Assembly: GCA_021800365.1 (NCBI GenBank)
Contig: JAJYZA010000002.1
Coordinates: forward strand, 97,187-144,315
Reading direction: 5' to 3'
DNA: 47,129 bases
Source: Nanobdellota archaeon
GTDB taxonomy: Archaea; Nanobdellota; Nanobdellia; Parvarchaeales; Parvarchaeaceae
Shown one piece after another: positions 16,457 through 30,204 of this stretch. Each line of letters opens with the position of its first letter. Within the stretch, counting starts at the first letter, position 1. The position numbers were made by a program, and so were the translations under genes. The notes beneath the pieces are model-generated. The model was not told the origin of the DNA, ran no database searches, and saw only the letters and a program-made list of their open reading frames with translations.

Positions 16457-18004
16457 TTATTTTATTTCGCCACCATGCACGGCTTCTATCAATAAAATAC
16501 GTATTTTATTACCTTGTCTTAATTTGATTTCGTAAATTGGTATAAGAACCCGCTCACACTCAAATAAAATCGAAGAGGGGAATATGGTTTTAGCCCAATC
16601 TTTTTCGATTCGCTCGTCTATACGACGGTTAATAATAAGAGATACCGGTACATTTAACTGGACTAATGCTGGTTTATTTTGCATGAGAAATCTCTCATAA
16701 TTTATTAACGAAACATTCTTGCCGTCAAAATAGACTAGTTTCCTGCTTTTTAAGCGGTTTATAGAATTATGCGTGGCTCTAATCCCCATACCCAATTCTT
16801 TGTCTATACTGCTAATGCTTTCTTTTCGTTTCTTTGCAAGCTCCGATAAGACATCGTAATCTTCTTTAAGGAGTCTGCTTTCGCCCATTATCGGTCCCTG
16901 TGAAATAGATAATTCGTCATTTAGCACAATAAAATGTATCTTATCATCAAGCATTACATATGCCTCCTTATACTCCCCGTCATGTCTTAGGGGCAGTCTC
17001 AGTCCAATAAGTACAACGCTAATAAACTTTTCTGTTATGGCATCTATAGATTCGATTCTCTTACCGAATAATATGAACTCTTTCTTTTCCTTTTTGCCGG
17101 CGTAATCTCTAATGTGGTCTTCATCTATTCCCTTAAGCAGAGCGTATGTATTAACAGTCACTTGTTTTTCATTGTTATTTTTTACGGTAGCGACTATTAT
17201 TTTTTGTTTTAGTTCCTGCAGAACTTTACTAAGTTTTTCGCCCGGTAAAGGTTTTTTAAGAGTCGGCGTCGCCCCTCCATGTACTGTTATCATGCGTTTT
17301 ACGTGAATAGTACCGTCAAATCCAAGACCAAAAGATGAAAATTCGCCGGATTTATATGCTGCAATACTTCTAAGCGTTGATCGTGAGAAGAAGAGACTTA
17401 TTGCATTGATATCATTCTCTATCGCAAGTTTGCCTATAAAACCGTAAGCACATTGAGCTAATATGTTTTTATCGATATTAGCTGGTCTTTGCGATATTAT
17501 AAGTAAGCCTATGCCTCTTTTGCGACCCCTTACTGCTAATTCTTCTAGCATGCCTGGGACATGATGCGTCTGTGGCGCAAATTTATCTGCTTCTTCTACA
17601 AGAAGTAAGTAAGGGCAACTTAACTCTTCTTCTAACTTATATAGCTCAGATAGAGCTTTATTTAAAATTTCTGTCTTCTGCAGGGTTTCGGACAAATCAA
17701 GTATAATCGGCAGGTTGTTTTGTATACTGCGTTTAAATAGCATATAAAAATCTACTTCTAGCCCAACATCGCCCTTATCGCCCCCCACAATAATTACCTG
17801 AAAGGCAGTTCTTAGCGGATAATATTCTCCTTCTGTATCCACAACACAGAAAGGTAGTTTTAGTCTGCAAAGCTCTTCTAAGATTATACCTGCTAGGTAA
17901 GATTTACCGGAGCCACTCTGACCCAAAATACAACCCCTATTGGTCATAATGGTCTGCGCAGAAAGGTTCACGTCCTTTGCGATATTAATTTTTACGTCGC
18001 GCAT
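16457..18004 (-). CDS. HerA/FtsK-like DUF87 ATPase with C-terminal winged helix
   Basis: The 515-residue ATPase has Walker A GQSGSGKS at residues 28-35, Walker B LLLVEEAD at 133-140 and the SQRPANIDK segment at 171-179. These are typical of HerA-type DNA-translocating hexamers. The ATPase core starts only 15 residues from the N-terminus, so the HAS-barrel domain of true HerA is missing. After a middle domain of unknown fold (about 265-375), residues 385-440 look like a winged helix (SSIDKELGMGIRATHNSINR, then LKSRKLVYF). No NurA nuclease is adjacent. It may serve in DNA repair, conjugation-like transfer or defence; I cannot tell. The gene is monocistronic. Confidence 0.8.
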   Translation of the reverse strand: MRDVKINIAKDVNLSAQTIMTNRGCILGQSGSGKSYLAGIILEELCRLKLPFCVVDTEGEYYPLRTAFQVIIVGGDKGDVGLEVDFYMLFKRSIQNNLPIILDLSETLQKTEILNKALSELYKLEEELSCPYLLLVEEADKFAPQTHHVPGMLEELAVRGRKRGIGLLIISQRPANIDKNILAQCAYGFIGKLAIENDINAISLFFSRSTLRSIAAYKSGEFSSFGLGFDGTIHVKRMITVHGGATPTLKKPLPGEKLSKVLQELKQKIIVATVKNNNEKQVTVNTYALLKGIDEDHIRDYAGKKEKKEFILFGKRIESIDAITEKFISVVLIGLRLPLRHDGEYKEAYVMLDDKIHFIVLNDELSISQGPIMGESRLLKEDYDVLSELAKKRKESISSIDKELGMGIRATHNSINRLKSRKLVYFDGKNVSLINYERFLMQNKPALVQLNVPVSLIINRRIDERIEKDWAKTIFPSSILFECERVLIPIYEIKLRQGNKIRILLIEAVHGGEIK

Positions 18005-23389: not shown

Positions 23390-24445
23390 TTAATTAGATA
23401 GTTTTTTATTCTTGTTTAATCTGGATAATATTGATTTTATTTTTTTTAGTTCTTTCGTCGCGATATTTTTCTGCCAGACCTCATAACTAGATATTTCTCG
23501 CAGATTCTCAATAAATTTAGCGCTTCTTATTAAGTGCTTTTTTATATCACCTTTTTCATAACCCCTGCCCGTAAAGAGTAGCGATTGTCGCGAGGACCAA
23601 TCACCAGGTTGATCACACCCAGGGATGAACCACGGTAGATATTTTTGGAGGGTCGTTTTATCGATTATGCTTCTTAGCTTTCTCTTCTTTTTGTATTTTG
23701 AGAAGTAGCTTTCATCTATGCCGTATACAGTCATATCATAGTTGTTAAATGCAAGTTCAGTTACATTTTCTATTGAAAAAGCATGCAATTTTATTCCGTG
23801 GTTCGCTGAGACCTCTTTGAGTAGTTTTAATGCTGAAATAGAAATGAATCCGTATAGGATAATATCAGTTATTTTTGAATCACGTTTTTTGCTCTCTATT
23901 ATTGCGCTTTCTATCGCTAACTTTCCGGATACACCAGTAGCTTCTGTATCGGGTTTTATCAGTATTAGCTTGCTTTTTCTAGGCAGCATAGAAAAATCCT
24001 TGTACACTGCTTTCAATACCCTTCTTCTGTGATTTCTATAGGATGCCATCACATATTTTGGCCTTATAAAAGTTTCTCGGATATCGGTATGTGGCAAGGC
24101 GCGTCTAAGCGCAGGAAGTAATTTGTACCCGGGCGCAGCTCGTAGGACATTTTCAAAAACTAATTTACAACCACCGGACTCCTTATCATTTAAAACTAGC
24201 AGTCGTATCGCTTTTGCCGCTTCAATCGCGGCGGAAAAGGCCAATTTGTCTAAGTTTTTCCCGACTATATGTGGATGCATTGATATGCTCCTTCCGGCGG
24301 GAGTATCAATGATATATAATTCCTTAGGCAGACCTTTTTTTGCTACCTTGAAAACATGCGTAGACCTGTCTAGACCCTCTATTTTAAGCGCGTTTGTATG
24401 TTGCGTATCCAGGCTATACTCTTTGATTATATCATTAATGTTCAT
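23390..24445 (-). CDS. Unrecognised protein with a phosphoribosyltransferase-like core
   Basis: I do not recognise this 351-residue protein as a named family. Its middle resembles type I phosphoribosyltransferases. A strand enters a loop at LILIKPDTEATGVSGKLAIE (about 170-190), close to the PRPP-binding D-x-x-A-T-G-x-(S/T) loop. Before it, RLLVLNDKESGG fits the first core strand, and after it come ITDIILYGFISISALKLL and NYDMTVYGIDES strands. The C-terminus (about 270-350) is helical and Lys-rich, with WFIPGCDQPGDWSSRQSLLF. PRPP synthase is also encoded in the window, though not adjacent. It could be a PRPP-binding regulator or a base salvage enzyme; neither is shown. Confidence 0.6.
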   Translation of the reverse strand: MNINDIIKEYSLDTQHTNALKIEGLDRSTHVFKVAKKGLPKELYIIDTPAGRSISMHPHIVGKNLDKLAFSAAIEAAKAIRLLVLNDKESGGCKLVFENVLRAAPGYKLLPALRRALPHTDIRETFIRPKYVMASYRNHRRRVLKAVYKDFSMLPRKSKLILIKPDTEATGVSGKLAIESAIIESKKRDSKITDIILYGFISISALKLLKEVSANHGIKLHAFSIENVTELAFNNYDMTVYGIDESYFSKYKKKRKLRSIIDKTTLQKYLPWFIPGCDQPGDWSSRQSLLFTGRGYEKGDIKKHLIRSAKFIENLREISSYEVWQKNIATKELKKIKSILSRLNKNKKLSN

Positions 24446-28716: not shown

Positions 28717-30204
28717 ATGATCTTAGATGCCATATTAGAACAAAAGAGACCAATAAGAAAATTTACTTATCCCATACACATAGCCGGTTATAGGTCCAAC
28801 TGGGGAGAGTGGGACGTAATAAGAGAACTTTTATCAAACGCAATAGACGCAGAAAATGGCGACTGGAACAAGGTAAAACTATCCGATGTAGCTGATTCTC
28901 TAACTATACATAATATAACCCGGCCATTAACAATAAACGATTTCTATTTTGGATTTAGTTCACAAGGAAAAGGACTTTATACCGATTATAACGGAAGATT
29001 CAATGAAGGAATGAAATTAGCACTGATGGTTGCAGTAAGAGAAGGATATAAAACTGAGGTATATTTTGATAAGTATGTCGCAATACCATCCGCTATAGAA
29101 ACAAAAGATAAGATAAAAATACTTGAGATAAAAATCTTTAATCTCGATAAAAAAATTCCTGGAACCAAGATAATAATAAGTAAAATAGGAAACAATGGAC
29201 ACGAGCTAATCACTAAAAATGTGATATTTCCGGACGATACGCGAATTTTATTAAGAACAACTGCTGGCATTGGCAGTATGTTTTATTCGCCGCAGATTGA
29301 TGAAACTTCTTTAGTCGTGACCAAGAATAAGCTGGAGGCGCTTACAATCGGAGGCGTATTCGTTGGTGGAATGTTCGTATCTGAACTTAAGGATTACGCG
29401 TGGGGATACAATGTTTCACCGTCACTAATAAAAATATCAGAAGGCAGGAACTTTATAGATACCTACGATTTAAACTCTCTCATAAAAACAGCTATGCTTA
29501 AAATCGACAAAAAGGCGTATTGGTTCAAAATTTTTATGTCTATAAAAAATAATTTACCTGTTACAGAAAGTAAAATAACGCCGTATGCGCCATTCCTCTC
29601 GCCTATACTTGGTAATGTTAAGAACGCTATACTAGAGACATGGACCGAAGTGTTTGGAGATAAGGCGGTTGTAGAGGATCCTCTCGCGCGAGAAGTGGAA
29701 TATCGTGGTGGGGAGGTAATAAAGGGAATTCCACTCCTAAAAAAACTAGCTGAGTATTCTATATTACCAACTGGCGCTGACTTTCTGCAAAGCTACGCTA
29801 AAGTCGATAGAATAATCTATGATCTGAATACTTTACCTGAGATAGAACGTCGTGCATACGATATAATTCATGAAATAGTTTCGAAGTATGTGAATAGGCC
29901 AATTAAACTTATTGTATATGATTCGATCCCAGCAAAAGATGCTGCGGAGGGATTTTATAGCAGAAAAGACGATATTATTGGCATAAATCGACCAAGTTTT
30001 AAAGGTCCTGAGGAGTTATTTGATACTCTCGAAGAAGAGCTGGTTCATGCAATTTTTAATACTAATGATATGTCGAGAAACCACACAGACAAGCTACGGC
30101 AATTATCAGTAATACTCCTATTTGACGATTTTGTTATTGATAGAATAAATAAACTTAAAGAGTTGTATTCAAATGAAACTTTACTGGCAGCAAAAACCTC
30201 ATAA
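28717..30204 (+). CDS. GHKL (Hsp90-like) ATPase fused to a degenerate zincin-like domain
   Basis: I know no named family for this 495-residue protein. The N-terminal third looks like a Bergerat-fold ATPase. The N-box is WDVIRELLSNAIDAE (E37, N41). A strand SLTIHNITRPL stands where D-x-G-x-G normally is, and NGRFNEGMKLALMVAVREGY (92-111) fits the G2/ATP-lid glycine motif. The C-terminal part (about 360-495) looks like a small metallopeptidase fold: FDTLEEELVHAIFNTNDMSR near 434-454. The usual H-E-x-x-H there is E440-E441-L-V-H444, so the first metal ligand is changed. The two ends suggest an ATP-gated sensor with an inactive or altered peptidase. It stands alone. The ATPase is moderately sure, the peptidase-like part less so. 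Confidence 0.65.
   Translation: MILDAILEQKRPIRKFTYPIHIAGYRSNWGEWDVIRELLSNAIDAENGDWNKVKLSDVADSLTIHNITRPLTINDFYFGFSSQGKGLYTDYNGRFNEGMKLALMVAVREGYKTEVYFDKYVAIPSAIETKDKIKILEIKIFNLDKKIPGTKIIISKIGNNGHELITKNVIFPDDTRILLRTTAGIGSMFYSPQIDETSLVVTKNKLEALTIGGVFVGGMFVSELKDYAWGYNVSPSLIKISEGRNFIDTYDLNSLIKTAMLKIDKKAYWFKIFMSIKNNLPVTESKITPYAPFLSPILGNVKNAILETWTEVFGDKAVVEDPLAREVEYRGGEVIKGIPLLKKLAEYSILPTGADFLQSYAKVDRIIYDLNTLPEIERRAYDIIHEIVSKYVNRPIKLIVYDSIPAKDAAEGFYSRKDDIIGINRPSFKGPEELFDTLEEELVHAIFNTNDMSRNHTDKLRQLSVILLFDDFVIDRINKLKELYSNETLLAAKTS

Follow-up and report, generated by a model that had tools for sequence, protein, structure and literature searches.

The window, a stretch of 47,129 nucleotides from a Nanobdellota archaeon, contains at positions 28717-30204 of the plus strand (as are all features below unless stated otherwise) an open reading frame with an ATG start for a 495-aa protein. 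As judged from its sequence motifs and predicted structure, the protein joins a Bergerat-fold (GHKL) N-terminus to a zincin C-terminus with an altered HExxH motif. An earlier note had proposed this combination, and motifs, profiles and models now agree on it. The same two-domain build occurs with an unaltered HExxH in phages and elsewhere among the archaea of the class; the change in the motif is a derived trait of one genus. What is new is a zincin-bearing family of phage GHKL proteins with an apparently domesticated archaeal branch that conserves E-E-x-x-H, whereas phage GHKL/rIIA-type proteins as such are known.

Pfam gave no match to the whole fusion protein, even at an E-value of 10, and NCBIfam gave only sub-threshold matches of the sacsin-type ATP-binding kind. 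The profile of PHROG 6077 (phrog_6077) matches residues 23-321 (E 2.6e-33); this family consists of phage proteins with no assigned function, and the labels given to similar phage proteins include 'RIIA lysis inhibitor' and 'sacsin-beta sandwich', each once. A full-length alignment of the fusion protein with phage proteins was also obtained. An AlphaFold2 model of the 495-aa protein, built with 37 homologues, has a mean pLDDT of 84.9 and a pTM of 0.69. Structure prediction of the two halves, the check on which the earlier note had staked its proposal, gave a Bergerat fold for the N-terminal and a zincin fold for the C-terminal half. Motifs were compared in an alignment of 38 proteins, 18 zincin-bearing relatives among them.

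The GHKL ATPase domain with a transducer-like region occupies about residues 13-250 (28753-29466; the extent, taken from Foldseek and profile matches, is approximate). Against the PDB, a profile of the family matches Hsp90-class ATPases (E 2.4e-5), and Foldseek searches with the AlphaFold2 model retrieved TRAP1 (E 3.5e-5), MORC2, topoisomerase II and Hsp90. The N-box ELLSNAIDAE (residues 37-46, 28825-28854) and the glycine lid GRFNEGMKLAL (residues 93-103, 28993-29025), both pointed out previously, are indeed present with key residues that are invariant or nearly so: R36, E37, D44, G93, E97, G98 and R244 do not vary across the 38 aligned proteins, N41 is found in 36 of them and K100 in 37. Within the N-box of GHKL proteins, E37 corresponds to the catalytic Glu and N41 to the Mg-site residue. 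R244 lies in EGRN (residues 242-245, 29440-29451), the counterpart of a viral R-D-R motif. The D-x-G-x-G box is lost, as had been noticed; in the alignments its position reads HNITR (residues 65-69, 28909-28923), and YNKSR in the orthologue of the congeneric genome G324. At the first D of the box (residue 66) the window protein has N, and its zincin-bearing relatives have D or N; family-wide N or S is commoner than D and the box is degenerate in many phage relatives, so that the archaeal genus is not alone in having lost it. Because this box is lost (E37, N41 and the lid remain), ATP binding by the fusion protein is uncertain, and by its predicted fold and its descent the protein is a GHKL homologue, a label that carries no claim of ATPase activity.

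The C-terminal domain, similar to minigluzincins in model, Foldseek and profile matches, covers about residues 362-475 (29800-30141). Modelled alone, the C-terminal part reached a pLDDT of 80.7, with values above 90 over most of the domain, and Foldseek placed it with projannalysin, proabylysin and selecase (E from 3e-3, the top matches having a probability of 0.97-1.00). A profile of the family's C-termini matches Wss1 (E 6e-5), proabylysin (E 1e-4) and, weakly, SPRTN; of 12 members compared with the SprT-like Pfam model, 4 match it weakly (best 0.0011), and the window member does not match. At the place of HExxH the window protein reads EELVH (residues 440-444, 30034-30048), as first noticed in the earlier note, whose proposed profile search for homologues with the true motif returned relatives that carry an intact HExxH...D. 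The 18 zincin-bearing relatives in the alignment, almost all of them viral, uniformly have H440, E441, H444 and D451; the window protein has E440 instead of the His and keeps E441 (the catalytic Glu), H444 (the second His) and D451. One detail needs correction: the N-x-x-x-x-H described downstream is not the conserved element, since the residue invariant in the 18 relatives is D451 (30067-30069), the first residue of D-x-x-x-x-H456 and probably the third metal ligand of the family, and position 456 is His or Phe among relatives. From its sequence the protein is homologous to zincin peptidases and, with EELVH, is not classed as an active one. That it cannot cut is not thereby proven, because Glu can ligate metals.

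Among 28 genomes of the genus, the fusion gene is clearly present in three and perhaps in four, one copy (G011) having its start at a contig edge. Genome G324 carries an intact orthologue of 474 aa with 43% identity to the window protein (phrog_6077 E 2e-35). In the G015 copy (L012:8572-10032) the internal blocks stand in the order A-C-B-D with broken frames, the frame shifting and then returning; this is either a real rearrangement, in which case the gene may be dispensable there, or a misassembly. The G324 and G015 orthologues both read EELTH...D. Over residues 435-458 the window protein and its G324 orthologue reach 71% identity, as against 43% along the whole protein, a value that 3.8% of windows of that size match or surpass, and E440, E441, H444, D451, R454 and H456 are all kept. 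The codons of E440, E441 and H444 differ synonymously among the three species, and a comparison of G324 with G015 gives a dN/dS of 0.10 in the N-terminal block and of 0.08 in the C-terminal one, both rough because dS is high. The high identity of the motif region, the retained residues, the synonymous codon differences and the low dN/dS indicate that the altered motif is maintained by constraint and is not decaying. A motif change under selection in at least three species suggests an enzyme that has been repurposed and not broken. Another member of the genus, G020, encodes a stand-alone 189-aa zincin-like protein (L162:4021-4590) that resembles the C-terminal domain of the fusion and has an intact HEEAH.

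A tblastn search found relatives in 72 phage records, the best matches listed covering the N-terminal half. The protein of Moorella phage MTATph1 (L008) aligns over residues 25-468, with DDGPG and HETLH intact. An IMG/VR scan queried by alignment gave 148 relatives, four of which matched over most of the length (L014, L015, L024 and L030), and a second scan gave further relatives with HExxH; when the window protein or the Moorella phage protein served singly as query, peptide-pattern scans of IMG/VR returned no relatives. The best viral structural match to the window model is A0A3G3BWI8 (437 aa, E 1.3e-23), which, from its equal length, we infer to be the protein of Exiguobacterium phage vB_EalM-132 (L184), which reads HETIH...ND. 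In six annotated phages, helicase, ligase, primase, exonuclease or SSB genes lie within about 6 kb, and this setting, amid or close to replication genes, fits an early or middle role in the phage. The viral loci L120 and L122 encode a large protein of one shared PHROG; that of L122 has relatives in Bacillus, Enterocloster and other phages, some annotated as RNA polymerase, and the donor lineage therefore need not be an archaeal virus. A 595-aa protein of an archaeal virus, Sulfolobales Beppu filamentous phage 1 (BFVD A0A3Q8Q6V3), also matches the window model (E 5.9e-15). A distant bacterial relative in a Melainabacteria MAG (L116, ORF from 6105) has 1060 aa, two GHKL-like units and a zincin reading EEKAH...D, by its sequence an independent change of H to E with the Asp kept.

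A maximum-likelihood tree was built from about 320 N-terminal residues (44 rows, midpoint root). In it the genus forms a clade (100) that joins L119, L015 and L024 inside the viral rows with an SH-aLRT support of 89, short of 95, and homologues from the rest of the class group in a clade of their own (SH-aLRT 100). On this sequence evidence the gene was apparently acquired by the archaeon from a virus; since the tree is midpoint-rooted, the direction of transfer is inferred. The source genome (0.9 Mb, 98% complete) has beta-oxidation and methylcitrate-type genes, a profile that would suit a DPANN archaeon of the ARMAN-4/5 (Parvarchaeum) type. The fusion gene lies between an MmgE/PrpD gene and a downstream PRPP synthetase gene (30268), its surroundings are metabolic, and base composition is flat and ordinary across it. 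Insertion beside a tRNA was discarded, as the window contains none.

As to defence, which the earlier note advised looking for in the gene neighbourhood, PADLOC 2.0.0 had no anti-phage defence model matching the fusion protein, and the gene sits among metabolic genes. A fixed operon with PRPP synthetase, which occurs in 8 of the 28 genomes, is ruled out by the 1.5 kb flanks of five further copies, which hold no fusion gene. The HerA-like gene (16457-18004) adjoins the fusion gene in G015, and its occurrence in 5 of the 28 genomes and absence from G324 rule it out as a fixed partner. An uncharacterised gene on the minus strand (23390-24445) encodes a 351-aa protein with no match in Pfam, NCBIfam or PHROG; its orthologues, about 60% identical, are immediate same-strand neighbours of the fusion gene in G324 and G015 (L161 and L012), whereas in the window the distance is 4.3 kb. 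It is present in 4 of the 28 genomes, three of which carry the fusion gene and one of which (G019) does not, and its association with the fusion gene is tentative. To speak of an undescribed system, as the earlier note did, is thus too strong, there being no strictly conserved partner gene and no matching defence model; a literature search covering mainly openly available papers found no description of a GHKL-zincin fusion.

The best of the earlier guesses is that of a phage rIIA-like factor. It holds in that the protein belongs with the phage GHKL family phrog_6077 and its model matches many RIIA models of other phages in BFVD, and it fails in that the protein is not RIIA proper. T4 RIIA shares a GHKL N-terminus and differs in its length of 725 aa and in its C-terminus; T4 rIIA and the fusion protein align over 73 columns of ATPase motifs (probability 51%; BLASTP E 0.025). 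Membership of the T4 type was rejected on the grounds that the similarity is confined to these columns, which makes the fusion protein a relative. Likeness to PHROG 6077 extends over the GHKL domain and the region following it, but most of the viral loci found end without a zincin, and the window protein is chromosomal in an archaeon and has no D-x-G-x-G. Within this family the window protein belongs to a zincin-bearing branch, whose phage members (L008, L184 and the IMG/VR loci L119, L120, L121, L122 and L135) have the same domain order, similar lengths (437-464 aa) and a conserved E-x-x-H...D; they differ from the window protein in being viral and in their intact HExxH, and several also have an intact D-x-G-x-G. 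Minigluzincins (abylysin, jannalysin/selecase) and Wss1/SprT share the minimal zincin fold, and the HExxH with relatives of the fusion, but are stand-alone or otherwise fused proteins without GHKL; in the window protein the motif is EExxH. In the literature, phage GHKL proteins whose C-termini vary have been treated as rIIA orthologues and called poorly understood (PMC7824862). RIIA-type GHKL proteins occur widely in phages and their function is largely obscure; one of their C-terminal domains can now be assigned, from sequence and models, as a probable minigluzincin; its intact active site in phages leads to the concrete proposal of an ATP-gated peptidase. The archaeal copies are natural variants, through which a single family could show what the H-to-E change does to metal binding, cleavage and the holding of clients.

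We tentatively favour the view that this is a chromosomal gene derived from a tailed-virus lineage and kept, and that its product may be an ATP-gated clamp that holds a client without cutting it, i.e. a pseudopeptidase. After capture and retention in the archaeal chromosome, the GHKL half would act as a nucleotide-gated dimeric clamp like Hsp90, MORC or MutL, as its class suggests, and would close on its client, either a protein or a complex of protein with DNA. The zincin of the phage proteins would then cut this client, probably during genome replication or host take-over; in the archaeal genus, where the first zinc-binding His is lost and the rest of the cleft kept, it may have become a client-binding or regulatory module, and the clamp would hold. 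FtsHi pseudoproteases similarly consist of an ATPase joined to a zinc-peptidase domain with its motif lost and are kept for work other than cutting (PMC11266112, PMC8197885), but they are chloroplast proteins with an AAA+ ATPase, unrelated by descent. An anti-virus role, e.g. sequestering the viral protein's own target, would be a plausible though unsupported extension, and we consider it improbable that a reduced-genome archaeon has domesticated a member of a not yet described class of viral ATP-gated, protein-cutting clamps, and that this host-owned clamp with the conserved E/H/D site, by holding or with another metal, counters viruses that have the active version.

Several other accounts have to be weighed against the holding clamp. 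The protein could be a metal-shifted, ATP-gated peptidase in which a metal, perhaps other than zinc, is bound by E440, H444 and D451, with E441 serving as general base; the identity of E440 in the three readable congeners, the conservation of the whole cleft region and the independent EEKAH...D of the Melainabacteria protein speak for this, but H is invariant in the 18 other aligned zincin relatives, and in a survey of metallopeptidase homologues replaced motif residues are marks of inactivity (PMC11266112), so that we regard it as rather unlikely. Slow decay of a captured viral gene with no present function would account for the alteration of both signature motifs, the swapped blocks and broken frames of the G015 copy and the patchy presence in the genus, yet it has little probability in view of intact frames of 495 and 474 aa at 43% identity, a dN/dS of about 0.1, i.e. 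well below 1, and the strong conservation of ATPase and zincin motifs. It is also doubtful that we are dealing with a DNA repair factor, a MORC-like clamp that brings a Wss1/SprT-like protease domain to DNA-protein crosslinks and is binding-only in its archaeal form: the matches of the C-terminal profile to Wss1 and SPRTN, the SprT-like Pfam matches of some members, the resemblance of the N-terminus to MORC2 and the place of the phage genes among replication genes are in its favour, but minigluzincin folds are common to unrelated peptidases, the closest fold matches are of the selecase/abylysin type and not Wss1, and no DNA-binding element was identified in the protein. A stress or virus sensor within a host antiviral system, as the earlier note envisaged, has only a slight chance of being correct. 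The literature treats GHKL proteins of varying C-terminus in the context of phage-host conflict (PMC7824862), and the uncharacterised neighbour co-occurs with the fusion in three of its four genomes; against this stand the empty PADLOC result, the metabolic surroundings and the 4.3 kb that separate the neighbour from the fusion gene.

Elsewhere in the class the GHKL-zincin architecture was found in 10 of 374 genomes (E 1e-8), mostly with intact HExxH. The homologues outside the genus (G114, G089, G091, G106, G117 and others) are a separate family; they share both domains, the GHKL lid and the C-terminal E-x-x-H...D with the window protein, and differ in their separate clade, in their length of about 490-970 aa and in their mostly intact motif. 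In G114 two GHKL-zincin genes stand in tandem (L165:5209-8782), the second without HExxH (ITRLGEYVTG), which suggests from sequence an active/inactive pair. GHKL-zincin homologues with in-frame TAG codons occur in G106 (L188), G129 (L191) and G085 (L190); the G106 genome is a single contig, and one of the TAG codons sits where relatives have Gln. These codons could reflect TAG recoding or decay; pyrrolysine was discarded as their cause, no PylS scoring above the cut-off. A truncated GHKL-zincin gene in G062 (L163:3846-5582), reading HETAH, adjoins a BRO-N gene, a typical viral neighbour.
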